Shown here: piece by piece, positions 27,983 to 57,747 of the stretch | Position numbering within the stretch: the first letter of the stretch is position 1 | How the letters are laid out: every line of letters begins with the position of its first letter | Source: an uncultured Ruminococcus sp. | GTDB lineage: Bacteria; Bacillota; Clostridia; Oscillospirales; Ruminococcaceae | DNA: 64,000 nucleotides | Assembly (NCBI GenBank): GCA_900318825.1 | Contig: ONMB01000011.1 | Location: forward strand, 40,743-104,742 | Reading direction: 5' to 3' | The notes under the pieces: generated by a model | Told to the model about the DNA's origin: nothing | The model's input: the letters and a program-made list of their open reading frames with translations, nothing else | Databases searched by the model: none | Made by a program: the position numbers and the translations under genes

Positions 27983-28924
27983 ATGAAGCGCTTTGTCTCC
28001 ATTTTCACTGCACTGACCACGGCTGCCGCTGTGATGCCGCTGACCGTTTCCGCAGAGGACTCCACCGCACCGTCTGAAACGTCTCCGCCCGGACCGATAT
28101 ATCACTATGAGGTGACCGACTCCGCTGCAAAGACCGCCCGTATCACCGGTTCGGAGAATATTTCCGGCAACGTCACTCTCCCTGCTGAGATAGCAGGCTG
28201 CAAGGTAACCGCCATAGCTGACAGAGCCTTCCTCGGCAACTGTGACATCACGACTGTGACAGTTCCCGACACTGTTGAGGAGATAGGCAGCTTTGCATTT
28301 TCAGGCTGTCTTAATCTCACTGATGTGAAGCTCCCTGCCGGAGTAAAAAAGCTCGGCAATTCGTGCTTTCTGAGCTGCACCTCCCTCGTGGAAGCCGACC
28401 TCGGTGACTCGCTCACTGCTATCCCGGAACGCTGCTTCTATTCCTGCTCATCTCTGCTTTGGGCTGATATCCCCGAGACCGTCGAGCTCATCGGCAAGGA
28501 AGCATATTACAGCTGCCCGGACGTCTCCGGCATACGCATACCGCCCTCGGTAAAGACCATAGGCGCGGACGCTGTCGGGGTACACTATGATATCAAGACA
28601 TCGTCTGCCAAAAATATCTCCGGCTTCTGTATAACAGGCTCTGCCGGTTCCTACGCTCAGCTCTACTCGGCAGACAAGGGCTTCTCATTCAGGGAGGACC
28701 ACGGTCATATGCTCGGCGATGCAGACCTCGACGGTATGGTGCTTGCTTTCGATGCGTCCGCAACTCTCCGCGAATACACTATCCTGTCAAGCGGCAAGCG
28801 TCCGACGTTATCGCGTCTCCAGAGGGAAAACGCCGACTACGACAAGGACGGCAGGCTCAGCGCTTTTGACGCTTCTTCCATACTCAAAGCCTACACTATC
28901 GCAAGCTCCAAGGTCGAGCACTGA
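27983..28924 (+). CDS. Secreted LRR_5 protein with C-terminal dockerin
   Basis: The 313-residue precursor has a signal peptide (cut near VSA-ED, about residue 24), a BspA-type leucine-rich repeat region (about 55-200: ADRAFLGNCDITTVTVPDTV and following copies), and a C-terminal dockerin with two calcium loops, GDADLDGMVLAFDAS (about 244) and DYDKDGRLSAFDAS (about 288). It should dock on a cell-surface or cellulosomal cohesin. The dockerin belongs to a class unlike those of the xylanase and cellulase here but like the N-terminal dockerin of the protein at 56 kb. Its start lies one base after the amidohydrolase stop. Confidence 0.9.
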   Translation: MKRFVSIFTALTTAAAVMPLTVSAEDSTAPSETSPPGPIYHYEVTDSAAKTARITGSENISGNVTLPAEIAGCKVTAIADRAFLGNCDITTVTVPDTVEEIGSFAFSGCLNLTDVKLPAGVKKLGNSCFLSCTSLVEADLGDSLTAIPERCFYSCSSLLWADIPETVELIGKEAYYSCPDVSGIRIPPSVKTIGADAVGVHYDIKTSSAKNISGFCITGSAGSYAQLYSADKGFSFREDHGHMLGDADLDGMVLAFDASATLREYTILSSGKRPTLSRLQRENADYDKDGRLSAFDASSILKAYTIASSKVEH

Positions 28925-41085: not shown

Positions 41086-43062
41086 TTAGTCCTCGCGGTA
41101 GGGGAGCTCAGTAATAAGTCTGAGCTTATACTTCTGGATAATAAGCGCGTCCTTATTGTTTACGCTGCCGTCACTGTTGACGTCAGCCTGCTGTTTTCCG
41201 AGTTTCTTGATACTGAGAGAGCTCTTGCCCACGTCGTACTTGTCAGGGTTTGTGGAAACCTGCATAACGAGTACAGCGTCTGCGATATTTATGAAACTGT
41301 CACAGTTTGCATCGCCGCATAAGAGAGCGCCGGTAGCGTGTGAGCTGCTCTCACTCGCAGTCTGTGACTCAGTCTCCGGCTCTGTGGGAGGAGCTGAGGT
41401 AGTGTACTCTATGCCGTCAACGATGGACTCGAAGCAGGGCTTTACGGAGTAGTCCTTGTTGAAGAGGAGCGGATCGCGGTCAGCTCTCCAGCTGAGGTCA
41501 TCGGTGGTTCCCCAAACGACAACAGCGGAAATATAATCCTTATAATCAACGAGAGCGTCCATGATATCGCTGTAATACTTAGCCTGAAGGTCAAATTTCT
41601 TGCCGTTTACAGTAGCGTCGAGCTCTGTTACCTGAATGTCGAGACCGGTCTTGCTGAACTTCTCAAGAGCCTGTCTGTACATAGCAACGTTCGGGAAAGG
41701 ATCAGGCTCGCCGTTGTTTGTAACGTTGAGGTGAGACTGCATACCGATGCCGTCGATGAAATGACCGTCAGAGTTTATATCCTTGCAGAGCTTTACGATA
41801 GCGTCGCTCTTCTGCATATACTCGTTGAAGTCGTTGTAGTAGAGCTTGCAGCCCTCGGGAGCGTACTTCTTGGCAAATTCAAAAGCAGGCTTGATGAATG
41901 AATTGTCGCCGAATATCTTTACCCACGGTGAGGACTCATAGTTGTTGTCGTCAGCCGGGAAGCCTGCTTTTCTGGGCTCACCGTAGTCGCTGAAGCACTC
42001 GTTAACAACGTCCCATGCGTAGAAGTCGATGTCGGAGTAATCCTTCTTTACGGCTGCGAAAACGTTCTTGATGTAGTTTTCCATACGCTTGAGCATCTTT
42101 TCCTTTGATACCCAATCGCCTTCGGGATCGTAGTTCTCCTTGAAGAACCACATAGGAGTCTGCTGGTGCCATACAAGAACGTGACCTCTCATCGGGATCT
42201 TATACTTGCGGGCAAATTCAAGGATAGGCTTAGCAGTTTCGAGCGATACCTGCGGATCTGTATCATTGCCGTCCTCAGCGAGTGCAAGGCAGGCAGCTCT
42301 GTCGAGAACGTTCTCGGGCTTGAGCTCATTGCCGGCGGTAAGGCTGTTGAAGTGCTTACGGATAAGGTCCTGAGTGGACTTAGGAGCTATCTCTGAAACG
42401 GTAGTTGCAGTACCGAACTTGAACATATCGCCGTAAACGTCCTTAAGTGAGGGAGCATCGGGATCCATATTGTTAGGTGAGAGCGAGATAGTGAAATCAT
42501 CTACACAGAGGTCGTTTGCGTCGCCCCATGTCTCGATGTATATGGAAACGTCCTTCTCCTCTGCACCGTATGCGAAGCTGGCATTCAGCTCAACATATTC
42601 GCCCTGTGAAGTACCCTTCACGAGGTTTGTGTACTGAGGCTGGTCAGAACCGCCGGGAGTATGCTGGAGCGAGATGCAGACTGTGTTATACCATGCAGCC
42701 TTTACCTTGACTGAGATATCGTACTTTACGCCCGGCTCAAGAACGCCGTCAACTGAGAGCGAAGGACCGTTCCAGCTCTCCTTGCGTCCTGTAACGGACA
42801 TTACCTTGCTTCCGCTCGGAGCCTTTGCGTCCTCGATAGCCTCGATAACAGAGGTATCGCTGTCGCCGCGCTTTGAGAATTTTGAAACGTCGCCGTCCTC
42901 GAAATCGGTCGAGAAAACTACCTGTGAGTCAGCAGCATATGCTGTTGTGAGGTTCCCTGAATTTACAGCAGGGACCGCAGCTATCGGATTGGCAGTCGCT
43001 GTACAGAGCAGTGCCGCACTGAGAGCGCTTGCAGTAAACGCTCTGAATTTTTTATTGTTCAT
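41086..43062 (-). CDS. GH10 endo-xylanase with CBM and dockerin
   Basis: The 658-residue secreted enzyme has a signal peptide (about 1-45, cut after AYA-AD), a CBM22-like module (about 48-195: VFSTDFEDGDVSKFSKRG ... DVSIYIETWGDANDLCVDDF), a GH10 barrel (about 205-550) with the acid/base Glu in WDVVNECF and the nucleophile Glu in VTELDAT, a Glu/Ser/Thr linker, and a type I dockerin (GDANCDSFINIADAVLVMQ and ADVNSDGSVNNKDALIIQKY). It cleaves beta-1,4-xylan as a cellulosome component. The start at MNNKKFR has GGGAGGG 6 nt upstream. It has its own promoter. Confidence 0.95.
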   Translation of the reverse strand: MNNKKFRAFTASALSAALLCTATANPIAAVPAVNSGNLTTAYAADSQVVFSTDFEDGDVSKFSKRGDSDTSVIEAIEDAKAPSGSKVMSVTGRKESWNGPSLSVDGVLEPGVKYDISVKVKAAWYNTVCISLQHTPGGSDQPQYTNLVKGTSQGEYVELNASFAYGAEEKDVSIYIETWGDANDLCVDDFTISLSPNNMDPDAPSLKDVYGDMFKFGTATTVSEIAPKSTQDLIRKHFNSLTAGNELKPENVLDRAACLALAEDGNDTDPQVSLETAKPILEFARKYKIPMRGHVLVWHQQTPMWFFKENYDPEGDWVSKEKMLKRMENYIKNVFAAVKKDYSDIDFYAWDVVNECFSDYGEPRKAGFPADDNNYESSPWVKIFGDNSFIKPAFEFAKKYAPEGCKLYYNDFNEYMQKSDAIVKLCKDINSDGHFIDGIGMQSHLNVTNNGEPDPFPNVAMYRQALEKFSKTGLDIQVTELDATVNGKKFDLQAKYYSDIMDALVDYKDYISAVVVWGTTDDLSWRADRDPLLFNKDYSVKPCFESIVDGIEYTTSAPPTEPETESQTASESSSHATGALLCGDANCDSFINIADAVLVMQVSTNPDKYDVGKSSLSIKKLGKQQADVNSDGSVNNKDALIIQKYKLRLITELPYRED

Positions 43063-43094
43063 TAAGAACCCTCCCAAAATATCTTTGTAATATA

Positions 43095-43123
43095 ATTTTA
43101 ACACAGCAAAACCCTACTGTCAA
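43095..43123 (-). promoter_or_regulatory. Promoter of the xylanase gene
   Basis: Minus strand: TTGACA (43118-43123), 17 bp, TAAAAT (43095-43100). No phased repeats like those at the GH9 gene are seen here. Confidence 0.7.
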
Positions 43124-43221: not shown

Positions 43222-43622
43222 TTAGAAAGACTTGATGAGACCGAGCTTGAACTTCTGGATAAGAAGTGCATCCTGGTTTGTTAATGAGCCGGACTCATTT
43301 ACGTCGCCGTTTGCCCAACCGATAGCAGTGATGCTCTTGGAGGACTTGCCTATGTCGTACTTGTCAGGGTTTGTAGCAACCTGCATTACGAGTACAGCGT
43401 CAGCGATATTTACGATACCGTCGCAGTTAGCGTCACCGAGCTTTGTGGGTGAAATGATGTTTGTTGTAGGCTTCTGAGTTGTAGTTGTTGTCTGAGTTGT
43501 TGTCTGTGATGAAGAGCCGTCTGTATAAACTCTGATAGCGTCGATTGTGAACTCGCCGCAGTCGATCCACCATACACCGAACTTGAGCTCGCCGTGGTAC
43601 TGTGTCTGGATTATGCTTGAAG
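43222..43622 (-). pseudogene. Out-of-frame end of GH9 gene: CBM end and dockerin
   Basis: In the frame shifted from the cellulase, this part reads TSSIIQTQYHGELKFGVWW (the rest of the carbohydrate-binding module), IDCGEFTIDAIRVYTDGSSS, a Thr-rich linker, and a complete dockerin (LGDANCDGIVNIADAVLVMQ; GDVNESGSLTNQDALLIQKF) ending at a TAA. It has no start of its own. Removing one A from the AAA run at 43623-43625 (TTT on plus) would join it to the cellulase frame. Confidence 0.85.
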
Positions 43623-45370
43623 TTTGTGATAGTACCCTTGTTGCCGGAGAATGTCTCCTGCATATCCTTTGTCATTGTCCAGTATTTGTCAGCAGCAACT
43701 GTTGTAGAAGTACCGAAAGCACCCTGCCACTTGCCGAGGCTGCTCTTGTTTGTGGAGATGTCGATCTCTACCTTGGAGACCTTATCCTTAGCGCCGACAC
43801 CGATATCAGCCCATTCCCAGCCGATCATCTCCATGCCTTCCTTATAAACTACCTTCTGATTGGGCTTGTACTCAACGTAACCGTCGCCTGTGCTGCCGGT
43901 AACTGTGGGCTGTGTTGTTGTAGGATTAGCCTGTGTTACGATCTGAGACTGAGTTGTTGTCTGGTAGATCTTTGTAACACCTGTGATGTTCTTGTCGATC
44001 TCACCGGTCTTGTAGAAGTGGTAGAGACCCGCAGCCGCACCAACGAGACCAGCATTATAGTCGAGAGCTACCTCGTTGCACTTATAATCCTTGATAGAAT
44101 CACTGTATGTACCGTTTGTATCAGCAGGACCGCCGGCGAGTGCGCCTACGAGAACAGGGCTGCCTGACTTAGCAACAGTGCTGTCGCCCATTTCGTCATA
44201 GTTCTGATAGCCGGAAGCTGCTCTGTGGTGAACGTTTACAGGAGATGTTGAATCAAATCCAACAACGAAGCATCTTGCAGGAGCAGAGCCAACGCCCTTC
44301 TTTCCTAAGATGTACTCCATCTGTCCCTTTGCCCAGTCAGCAGTACCCTTGCCGTGCTTAGCAGCAACGAGGGTTGTGAACTGAGCAGAGCAGTTATATC
44401 TTGCGCTGCCCCACTGCCAAGCATCGGGCTCAGCGATGCAGTAACCGTTGCCTGTGAACTTGCCGAGGTAATCTGTACCGCTCCAGTCGCTTGTGAACTC
44501 GCCCTTGAGCATTGAAGCACCGAGCTGAACGCTTTCCCAAGAATGAGCGGAATAAGCAGTAGGAGCCTTCTTCAGGTCATCGAGGTACTTGCTGTTGCCG
44601 GTAGCCTTATAGAGCCAGCCTGCAGCCCATGCGAGCTCATCAGATGTACCTGTCCAGTGAGCGTCGTAGAAAGTCTCTCCGCCGCCCTGAGCTGTATAGA
44701 AGCCGGTGTCCTTCTTGGAGAACTCGTAGAGAGCCTCAGCGTACTTGAGGTCATCAGCGTTCTTGAAGTTTACATAGTTAACTGCGAGAGCAGCTGCATA
44801 TTCAGCTGTTACGTTAGCAGCACCGCCTGTGGACCAGAGCATTCTGCCTCTGTAACCCTGCTTCTCCGGAGGTCCCCAGTAAGCGTGGTCAACGTTACCT
44901 TCACCTTTTTCGATTAGGACCTTTGAAACTGTATTGCCGTTGAGGACAGTAGCATCACGGAAGAACTTACAGAACTTGTCTGTTATCAGCTTGAGGTGAT
45001 CTGCCTGACCTGTATCACTGAAAGCATCAGGGAATTCATAATATGCCCAGCCGAGAGTTGAAGCGGTGTAGCCCTGAGGCTGACCGAACATAGCGTGGTC
45101 ACCTGCATCGTGGAAACCGCCGGGAACTTCGTCGTCCATATGGCAGTTGCTTCTCCATGAGAGACCGCAGCCTGAAACGTCGCCGCACATATTAGCGTCA
45201 TAGAAATAGAGAGAATACTGAAGGAGTCGTGCATAGTTGCTCGAATCCGCAGCATCAGCTGTTGACGGTGAAGTCTTTACAGCTGCTGACATTGAGCCTG
45301 CTACTGCTGTTACAGCGAGAATACCGCTCAGTGCAGCAGACTTAAGTCTGGAAAACTTTGATTTGTACAT
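43433..45370 (-). CDS. GH9 endoglucanase with CBM, frameshifted near the C-terminus
   Basis: The 645-residue reading frame has a signal peptide (about 1-41), a GH9 (alpha/alpha)6 domain (about 44-455) with the catalytic Asp pair in VPGGFHDAGDHAMFGQ (about 88-91) and the acid Glu in KCNEVALDYNAG, a Thr/Gln linker (about 465-490) and the start of a carbohydrate-binding module (DGYVEYKPNQKVVYKEGMEM). After GTITN the frame runs into nonsense (HNPDTVPRRAQV...) and stops at 43433. The true gene should extend to 43222. It hydrolyses cellulose beta-1,4 bonds, probably processively or as an endoglucanase; without the dockerin the product would not join the cellulosome. Confidence 0.88.
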   Translation of the reverse strand: MYKSKFSRLKSAALSGILAVTAVAGSMSAAVKTSPSTADAADSSNYARLLQYSLYFYDANMCGDVSGCGLSWRSNCHMDDEVPGGFHDAGDHAMFGQPQGYTASTLGWAYYEFPDAFSDTGQADHLKLITDKFCKFFRDATVLNGNTVSKVLIEKGEGNVDHAYWGPPEKQGYRGRMLWSTGGAANVTAEYAAALAVNYVNFKNADDLKYAEALYEFSKKDTGFYTAQGGGETFYDAHWTGTSDELAWAAGWLYKATGNSKYLDDLKKAPTAYSAHSWESVQLGASMLKGEFTSDWSGTDYLGKFTGNGYCIAEPDAWQWGSARYNCSAQFTTLVAAKHGKGTADWAKGQMEYILGKKGVGSAPARCFVVGFDSTSPVNVHHRAASGYQNYDEMGDSTVAKSGSPVLVGALAGGPADTNGTYSDSIKDYKCNEVALDYNAGLVGAAAGLYHFYKTGEIDKNITGVTKIYQTTTQSQIVTQANPTTTQPTVTGSTGDGYVEYKPNQKVVYKEGMEMIGWEWADIGVGAKDKVSKVEIDISTNKSSLGKWQGAFGTSTTVAADKYWTMTKDMQETFSGNKGTITNFKHNPDTVPRRAQVRCMVDRLRRVHNRRYQSLYRRLFITDNNSDNNYNSEAYNKHHFTHKAR

Positions 45371-55964: not shown

Positions 55965-55993
55965 TTGATTTGAGAGGAAAAATGTGGTATGAT
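55965..55993 (+). promoter_or_regulatory. Promoter of the cohesin/dockerin gene
   Basis: TTGATT (55965-55970), 17 bp, TATGAT (55988-55993), about 53 bp before the TTG start. Confidence 0.65.
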
Positions 55994-56046
55994 ATATTCA
56001 ACAGGTCATTCAACAACTTGTGCAATCTGCGAAAGGTGGAATTAAT

Positions 56047-57663
56047 TTGAAAAAGTTTATAGCAACAGTAATGGCGCTTGGTATCGTTGGCGGAGCTCTT
56101 CCGGCAGCTTGTCCGTTTGCCGTTGAAACGTCCGCAGCGGACGATATATTCGATCCCCCGGTCATAAACGATCCGCTCAGCTCCATAGGAACGCCCCTCC
56201 CCGATTACCCGGAAAGGCTTCTCGGCGATGCGGACAAGGACGGTTACATATCGCCGTATGACGCTTCAAGAACGCTCAATCACTTAGCTATGCTGTCAAT
56301 TGGTAAAACAGACGCTGTTTCCGATGAGACCGCCGCTGCAATGGACACAGATCCTGACGGCAGGATAGGCGCATCTGATGCAGCACATATCCTGCGCTGG
56401 TGTATCAAGAAGCCCGCTAATGCCGAAAGCGACTATAAAAAGTCTGTCATCAGCGGTCACCAAAACAAGGAGATAGCATATGACGCCTCATCGTTCATAA
56501 ACTCCTCCAGATATGTTGATCCGTCAGACTCTGCCGTAAAGCCTGAAATCACCATTGATAAGGTCGAAAAAGACGCTTCCGATGCTGCCGGCAGGCAGGT
56601 AAAGGTCAACATAAATTTAAGCGGAGCAGATCTGCATTATGCCTCTGCCGGATTTCATCTGATATACGATGACAGACTGACTCTCGATAATCTGAAGCAG
56701 CCCTCTGAATTCTATGATTCGCTTATTTTCTCTCATGGTTCCATAGATAAAGGCAATGAATTCATCGGAATTACGGATTATGAGAATGACAGTCCGGACG
56801 GTATCCTCGCAACTGCGACCTTTACTCTCCCCGAAGACGCTGAATCAGGCGACCTTTACCCGATAGGCATACAATACTGCGAAGACGAAAGAACCTTTGA
56901 CTGCTTCGGCGGAGTGGTAAACAACGCGGAGAGCCAGCTTATGAACTCAGCCCTCTTCACAAACGGCATCTCAAACGGCTATATCAGCTTAGTGGAGTTC
57001 CCCACAGTTCCCATTACAGAGCCCCAGACAGCAGAGTATGATATAATCACCGAGTCGGGCATCACATACTATGTCTATCCGTCCGGATCGGCAAGAGTGG
57101 TCGATTGTGCCGAGGACATAACAGGAGAGGTCGTTATCCCGGACTCAATAAACGATGTTACGGTAACGCACATTGACGAAGCAGCTTTTCAGGGCTGTTC
57201 CGGCATAACATCTGTGAAAATACCTGTTTCAGTTAAAAATATAGCTGAGAACGCATTCAGCGGCTGTCCGCTTGAAAAGGTCACTATCATCAACTACAAC
57301 TGCACAATAACAGGCTCAGACACGTTCGGAGATGCCGAGATACACAGCTATGTCGGCGGATCAGTCGAGCAGTGGGCTAAGGACAACGGCAAGGTATTTG
57401 TTCCGATGTCGGACGTCGCCACTATTCACGATCCTACTCTCAAGGGCGATGCAAACCTCGACGATCAGGTAAACATCGCAGACGCCGTGCTCGTAATGCA
57501 GGTCACTACGAACCCGGACAAGTACGCTCCGGGCAAGTCCGACGTCAGCATAAAGGCGCAGGGCGAGATCAACGCCGATGTTGACGGCAAGGCTGGTCTG
57601 ACCAATTCCGACGCCCTCCTCATACAGAAATTCAAGCTCGGACTCATCAGATCTTTCGACTGA
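56047..57663 (+). CDS. Cohesin-like protein with two dockerins and LRR repeats (adaptor scaffoldin)
   Basis: The 538-residue secreted protein has a signal peptide (about 1-31), dockerin 1 (about 60-121: GDADKDGYISPYDASRTLN and DTDPDGRIGASDAAHILRW), a cohesin-like domain (about 165-317: VKVNINLSG, YASAGFHLIYDDRLTLDN, SPDGILATATFTLPEDAESG, YPIGIQYC), a short LRR_5 region (about 365-425, DEAAFQGCSGITSVKIPVSV) and dockerin 2 (about 467-535: GDANLDDQVNIADAVLVMQ; ADVDGKAGLTNSDALLIQKF). Dockerin 2 is of the same class as those of the xylanase and cellulase here, dockerin 1 of the LRR-protein class. The start is TTG with AAAGGTGG 7 nt upstream; no ATG gives the signal peptide. It could bridge cohesins and carry one client. 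Confidence 0.8.
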   Translation: MKKFIATVMALGIVGGALPAACPFAVETSAADDIFDPPVINDPLSSIGTPLPDYPERLLGDADKDGYISPYDASRTLNHLAMLSIGKTDAVSDETAAAMDTDPDGRIGASDAAHILRWCIKKPANAESDYKKSVISGHQNKEIAYDASSFINSSRYVDPSDSAVKPEITIDKVEKDASDAAGRQVKVNINLSGADLHYASAGFHLIYDDRLTLDNLKQPSEFYDSLIFSHGSIDKGNEFIGITDYENDSPDGILATATFTLPEDAESGDLYPIGIQYCEDERTFDCFGGVVNNAESQLMNSALFTNGISNGYISLVEFPTVPITEPQTAEYDIITESGITYYVYPSGSARVVDCAEDITGEVVIPDSINDVTVTHIDEAAFQGCSGITSVKIPVSVKNIAENAFSGCPLEKVTIINYNCTITGSDTFGDAEIHSYVGGSVEQWAKDNGKVFVPMSDVATIHDPTLKGDANLDDQVNIADAVLVMQVTTNPDKYAPGKSDVSIKAQGEINADVDGKAGLTNSDALLIQKFKLGLIRSFD

Positions 57664-57677
57664 TATAATTATATCTC

Positions 57678-57707
57678 AAAGCTCCCTCTAAAACAGGGAG
57701 CTTTTTG
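57678..57707 (+). terminator. Intrinsic terminator
   Basis: AAAGCTCCCT/AGGGAGCTTT (57678-57687 with 57695-57704) followed by TTG. Confidence 0.85.
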
Positions 57708-57747
57708 TCAGCTTTGTAAAATTACAGTTAAAATCCCAAAAAAGGGA

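Follow-up and report, generated by a model that had tools for sequence, protein, structure and literature searches.

In the window, the whole 64,000-nucleotide stretch of DNA analysed here, a forward-strand gene encodes a 538-residue protein in which a putative signal peptide precedes a first dockerin, a cohesin, a leucine-rich repeat (LRR) stretch and a second dockerin. The features are as follows.

55970..55998, forward strand: promoter-like site TTGAGA-17-TATATT with TG before the −10 element, from a consensus scan
56032..56039, forward strand: ribosome-binding-site-like AAAGGTGG, 7 nt 5' of the TTG start, by eye
56047..57663, forward strand: whole gene, TTG start, stop ending at 57663, 538 aa, signal peptide–dockerin (group-4-like)–cohesin–LRR–dockerin (group 1)
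56047..56139, forward strand: putative signal peptide LKKFIATVMALGIVGGALPAA..., by eye, end approximate
56224..56409, forward strand: dockerin 1, group-4-like (ScaH type), residues 60-121, from Pfam, the 8ajy_B match and class models
56431..57006, forward strand: region that aligns with the ScaE of the same genome, residues 129-320, from BLASTP
56518..56991, forward strand: cohesin, ScaE-like (type III), residues 158-315, from Pfam, PDB matches and a tree
57160..57330, forward strand: short BspA-type LRR_5 stretch, residues 372-428, Pfam E = 3.7e-11
57445..57642, forward strand: dockerin 2, group 1 (ADAVLVMQ), residues 467-532, from PDB matches, class model and residue mapping
57680..57710, forward strand: hairpin AGCTCCCT-7-AGGGAGCT followed by a T-rich tail, possible terminator, by eye

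The consensus scan around the gene returned 10 promoter-like sites where 3.0 were expected, which is no proof of function, and the hairpin was not among the sites that it returned for the region. In a Pfam search up to E = 10 the protein matched seven families, namely Dockerin_1 (E = 1.3e-7, 32.1 bits, two stretches), Cohesin, LRR_5 and four weak EF-hand models; NCBIfam gave no match above its cut-off. A C-terminal wall sorting signal, a trait of the anchoring scaffoldin ScaE, was not seen by eye, and the C-terminus is dockerin 2. At least one cohesin and at least one dockerin thus share a chain that is predicted to be secreted from the signal peptide seen by eye, as in adaptor scaffoldins; the class of one dockerin and one cohesin in the passage of PMC11557425 does not extend to this protein, which has two dockerins. 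A preliminary description of this DNA had reported two dockerins of unlike class with a cohesin between them. Its coordinates and domain order proved correct on reading the open reading frame and from the Pfam and PDB sequence matches, and its two dockerin classes and cohesin are supported by Pfam, the PDB sequence matches and class models.

The same description had proposed an HMM search against cohesin families, and Pfam Cohesin matched residues 172-276 at 25.0 bits, just above the cut-off of 24.1 (E = 2.4e-5). Pfam alone is marginal for this domain, because in a six-frame search of the genome the same cohesin scored 22.5 bits, below the cut-off. Against PDB sequences it lies nearest to ScaE cohesins (E = 5.8e-19 for 8ajy_A, E = 6.7e-19 for 4iu2_A, and E = 1.1e-15 for 2zf9_A), as expected of type III (ScaE-like) cohesins. 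Single-sequence AlphaFold2 produced two models with mean pLDDT of 43.1 and 42.4, too poor for use, and a Foldseek search with the second of them gave no match at E ≤ 0.001, and the 50 matches listed included no cohesin; the sequence match to solved cohesins supports the cohesin fold. A BLASTP alignment of 216 columns (37%, E = 1e-40) pairs residues 129-320 with the ScaE of the same genome, in which the matched span runs from residue 31, directly after the ScaE signal peptide, to residue 246. In a tree of 102 cohesins, the window cohesin pairs with that of an ortholog (SH-aLRT 98) and the genome's own ScaE joins the pair next (96). Judged from this alignment and this grouping, the central part of the protein resembles a ScaE head flanked by two dockerins.

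Dockerin 1 has its best PDB sequence match in the ScaH dockerin 8ajy_B (E = 1.5e-7). None of the other 38 PDB rows, which comprise dockerins, EF-hand proteins and fusions, is better than E = 0.0023, and the second-ranked dockerin is at E = 0.036. With in-house profiles it scored 67 bits against the group-4-like model, of whose 15 seed-alignment rows it is itself one, and did not match the group-1 model. It contains two symmetrical calcium-binding repeats with canonical 12-residue loops (DADKDGYISPYD and DTDPDGRIGASD), and its sequence is nearest to group 4. On these matches dockerin 1 is group-4-like, its nearest solved relative being the ScaH dockerin, which a passage of the review PMC12484212 gives as crystallised with the ScaE cohesin, and it is predicted to bind ScaE.

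In Ruminococcus flavefaciens FD-1, some group-4 dockerins use Gly-Arg dyads for recognition (PMC5301203, section 11), and at these sites dockerin 1 has Pro-Tyr and Ala-Ser. Recognition dyads that differ from those of FD-1 would suit a protein in which a single dockerin works: dockerin 1 would be a drifting leftover, and the cohesin and group-1 dockerin would make an ordinary monovalent adaptor comparable to ScaC or the FD-1 ScaE-like protein. The dyad is perhaps not diagnostic in this lineage, however, because the ScaB and CttA dockerins of the same genome also lack it, and two features speak against drift: the window gene and its ortholog each encode two canonical calcium loops in dockerin 1, and the residues PY-DAS are common to the two proteins.

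Dockerin 2 matches the group-1 dockerins 5m2s_B (E = 8.9e-16) and 5m2o_B (E = 6.9e-10) among PDB sequences. The group-1 model, built from nine dockerins of the genome including dockerin 2, has 32 matches there, two of which (C29:55368 and C29:55527) are parts of one dockerin, and dockerin 2 ranks eighth among them (E = 6.1e-41); the group-4-like model has 14 matches in the genome, 7 of the 14 below E = 1e-15. Both models include this gene's own dockerins, which leaves the PDB matches as independent evidence for class. Group-1 dockerins have been crystallised with ScaA/ScaB cohesins, and the hot spots of Doc1a defined (PMC5429695); mapped through the PDB alignment, dockerin 2 retains the hot-spot residues Ile-39 and Val-43, and Met-46, Gln-47 and Lys-54 are also kept. 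Ser-40 is replaced by Ala, a substitution also seen in 31 of 40 group-1 dockerins picked by pattern from the fetched loci. One calcium loop is canonical, and the second, DVDGKAGLTNSD, deviates at position 5, as it does in other group-1 dockerins of the same genome. By sequence and by both hot spots, dockerin 2 is a group-1 dockerin nearest to the solved ones, and it is predicted to bind ScaA/ScaB cohesins.

The presumed partners are encoded elsewhere in the genome (2.02 Mb, 62 contigs, 84% complete). The window gene stands apart from the sca genes, between genes that we take, from their sequence, to encode a prolyl-tRNA synthetase and a phosphate transporter. The sca gene set appears to be split by contig ends: contig C13 carries a cohesin–dockerin gene like ScaC and a partial two-cohesin frame like ScaA, and contig C38 a partial ScaB-like gene with an X-dockerin, a CttA-like gene and ScaE, all five names being our reading of gene order and similarity. 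Against PDB sequences, the ScaA-type cohesins are nearest to 5aoz, 5m2o and 5m2s, and the ScaB-type X-dockerin to the CttA X-dockerin. The CttA-like gene (L034, 7407-10086, reverse strand) appears as a pair of frames that overlap inside a Thr-rich repeat, possibly an assembly fault.

Other dockerin-bearing genes were noted along the way. At 27983-28924 (forward strand) the window encodes an LRR_5 protein whose group-4-like dockerin makes it a candidate ligand of ScaE-type cohesins, and at 41086-43104 (reverse strand) a CBM4_9-GH10 xylanase-type protein bearing a group-1 dockerin. A GH9 gene (43225-43671 and 43436-45370, reverse strand) is seemingly broken in two where the reading frame changes within DUF5620: GH9 and DUF5620 positions 3-76 lie in the upstream frame, and DUF5620 positions 80-120 and a group-1 dockerin in the overlapping next one; the change within 43225-45370 is either a sequence error or real. 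Outside the window, L041 (5593-7629) has two neighbouring frames, the first with a dockerin shortened by a stop and the second with a dockerin containing an internal duplication of GEVNADVDGKKGLSN.

According to passages of PMC5301203, group-4 dockerins of FD-1 bind ScaE and its group-1 dockerins bind the ScaA and ScaB cohesins. A bridging of two different scaffold cohesins, as the preliminary description proposed, is plausible because the genome encodes both a ScaE anchor and cohesins like the group-1-binding ones of ScaA/ScaB. Our preferred reading, to which we assign a probability of roughly 0.5, is that the protein is a secreted heterobivalent adaptor scaffoldin that ties the ScaE anchor to the ScaA/ScaB enzyme platform and displays a ScaE-type socket anew. 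Dockerin 1 would plug into the wall-linked ScaE cohesin, dockerin 2 would occupy an enzyme slot of ScaA/ScaB-type cohesins, and the central cohesin, derived from a ScaE-like gene, would offer a fresh ScaE-type socket to another group-4 protein. A single molecule could then tie the anchor to the enzyme platform, or extend the anchor, beside the known path from ScaE through ScaB to ScaA. The domains, the dockerin and cohesin classes by sequence, the order conserved in a second species, its recurrence in the genus and the presence of genes for the presumed partner cohesins are observations; the binding events, the secretion and the cross-linking role are our inferences.

The same modules could be arranged differently, with dockerin 1 binding the cohesin of another copy to form chains that end on ScaE, and with dockerin 2 hanging the chain members onto ScaA/ScaB. 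The FD-1 ScaH dockerin recognised its own cohesin in the part of PMC5301203 concerned, ScaH is a variable-length spacer in the account that the review PMC12484212 gives of Duarte 2023, and the window cohesin and dockerin 1 are both of ScaE/ScaH type. Our comparison, made with ScaE cohesin sequences, does not, however, separate a ScaE-like cohesin from a ScaH-like one, and we regard such a self-extending spacer as rather unlikely.

The LRR_5 stretch allows for a third role, in which a leucine-rich surface domain serves adhesion and the cohesin and dockerins merely position the protein. The LRR region of the ortholog (L045) is longer, with three LRR_5 stretches and 169 bits, and dockerin-bearing LRR proteins are common in FD-1 according to a passage of PMC2930009. 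Against adhesion as the main role, the LRR is down to one short stretch in the window gene, and no LRR_5 was found (Pfam, E 0.01) in the other seven proteins that we identified with a group-4-like dockerin, cohesin and group-1 dockerin in this order; we therefore hold it to be very improbable. In the relevant part of PMC5301203, dockerins of LRR proteins mostly failed to bind the cohesins tested, and among the rows listed in its table four LRR–dockerin proteins are given as binders.

The ortholog (L045/L070, genome G109, a second species) is full-length, has the identical domain order (57.5% identity over 412 columns and 66.5% over 158 columns), and likewise starts with TTG behind AAGGAGG as judged by eye. 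The presence of the same order in a different genome led us to reject a chimera in the metagenome-assembled genome (MAG); synteny gives no support, because the downstream neighbours of the ortholog differ. A whole-protein search of 99 relatives, a sample without G109, listed no full-length match outside the own genome. A search of genome contigs found three loci, all in the MAG RUG11186 labelled Ruminococcus flavefaciens; L031 of this MAG, which seemed to cover the whole query, was rejected as an ortholog, being an LRR–dockerin protein without a cohesin. In an order-level sample of 295 genomes (E ≤ 1e-40), the matches listed came from the window's own genome, a result that says little beyond the genus because the cut-off was strict and the rows listed include only two members of the genus.

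Searches of the genus with the dockerin–cohesin stretch as query covered 125 genomes. At least nine genes with the order group-4-like dockerin, cohesin, group-1-like dockerin were found in 9 of the 125, one per genome (G000, G109, G154, G051, G124, G153, G033, G049 and G100), these counts being lower bounds from selected frames among the matches listed and the queries, themselves group-4-like dockerin and cohesin, favouring that order. G033 has two cohesins between the dockerins, G154 has an additional cohesin in front, and three of the nine (G153, G049 and G100) have a GDSL esterase domain in front (Pfam). The esterase fusions (L076, L138 and L139) would be enzymes doubling as two-plug scaffolds.

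The fetched loci contained 121 cohesin-bearing frames; grouped by cohesin sequence, these represent 112 distinct genes. Of these genes, 37 have no dockerin, 61 have one and 14 have two or more, with some frames cut by locus ends. The nine mixed-class genes are among these 14; in the other 5, from four genomes (G043 twice, G121, G107 and G102), both dockerins are group-4-like. These frames (L074, L075, L162, L163 and L164) are 726-1430 aa long with the cohesin between the two dockerins, and L162 additionally has Ig-like (Big_2) domains. A group-1 dockerin in first place occurs in none of the 14. Across the 112 genes, 18 dockerins lie ahead of the first cohesin, and every one of them scores better with the group-4 model than with the group-1 model. 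G122 (L140 and L166) was left out of the two-dockerin set, a stop interrupting its first dockerin and the score falling below threshold. That a single dockerin is usual (61 genes vs. 14) again suits the view that one dockerin works in the window protein and dockerin 1 is a remnant, whereas the dockerin pair in the same order in nine genomes argues against it; we consider that view unlikely.

The hot-spot residue Val-43 is present in six of the nine group-1 dockerins; in the three GDSL proteins it is replaced, twice by Thr and once by Ala. This loss, the missing Gly-Arg in dockerin 1 and the mostly non-binding LRR-borne dockerins count against the bridging adaptor, and they could be lineage differences. 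A single clade for the cohesins of the nine mixed-class proteins, ten in number, was rejected (95.8 log units lost, AU p = 0.000444), with p = 0.0205 when the LRR pair was left out. These tests used 106 rows and a quick tree, the very long-branch row L037 having been dropped, and their p values are optimistic, because they followed a first tree that already showed the cohesins scattered. A single ancestral family for these cohesins is rejected on this evidence, and therefore either the layout has more than one origin or cohesins were swapped within it.

ScaI and ScaH of FD-1 already supply most parts of the layout. ScaH (cohesin–dockerin, group 4a) shares with the window protein a group-4-type dockerin, a cohesin and presumed docking on ScaE, whereas in the window protein this dockerin is N-terminal and a second, group-1 dockerin and an LRR stretch are added. 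ScaI (LRR–cohesin–dockerin, group 4a) has the same three kinds of module but, in the published table rows (PMC5301203), a different order and a single dockerin. The FD-1 ScaE-like protein (group 1b dockerin; PMC2930009, section 15) and ScaC likewise combine a cohesin with a group-1 dockerin, but neither has a second dockerin, and the ScaC cohesin is type-I-like. Outside Ruminococcus, Acetivibrio cellulolyticus ScaK, described in 2012, is a scaffoldin with two dockerins and two cohesins (PMC3413522); it also has an SLH module, whereas the window protein has one cohesin and neither an SLH match nor a sorting signal; the passage in PMC3413522 gives no dockerin classes. Multi-dockerin modules are rare according to a 2025 review, which has R. 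flavefaciens among its examples and assigns no known function to modules of at least three dockerins (PMC12484212, section 11); the double-dockerin proteins of C. thermocellum and the multi-dockerin proteins of R. flavefaciens in that section share more than one dockerin per chain with the window protein and have no partner domain or a protease domain, with no cohesin mentioned there.

Our literature search, which covered openly licensed papers and few subscription ones, turned up no account of a protein whose cohesin is flanked by dockerins of two classes. The layout, which the preliminary description had called unfamiliar, is new against the rows listed in the FD-1 interaction table, with one dockerin per cohesin protein (PMC5301203), but not in having two dockerins, as ScaK shows. 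We accordingly file the protein as a new variant of adaptor scaffoldin.

For designer cellulosomes, it would provide a naturally occurring part with two plugs and one socket. The rows listed in Ruminococcus cellulosome tables show no more than one dockerin for any cohesin protein, which therefore has a single mode of attachment within the tree. Two dockerins of unlike class on one chain could link two tiers of the assembly, and this would alter views on how complex size, rigidity and wall attachment are set. The presence of the layout in nine genomes, whose cohesins differ in origin, is an argument for its being in use. Tentatively, and with more doubt than confidence, we suggest that Ruminococcus may repeatedly have built a cross-linking adaptor from a group-4 dockerin, a ScaE-type cohesin and a group-1 dockerin, in some species with an esterase on the same core, which would close loops between wall anchor and enzyme scaffold and turn the branching cellulosome into a network.
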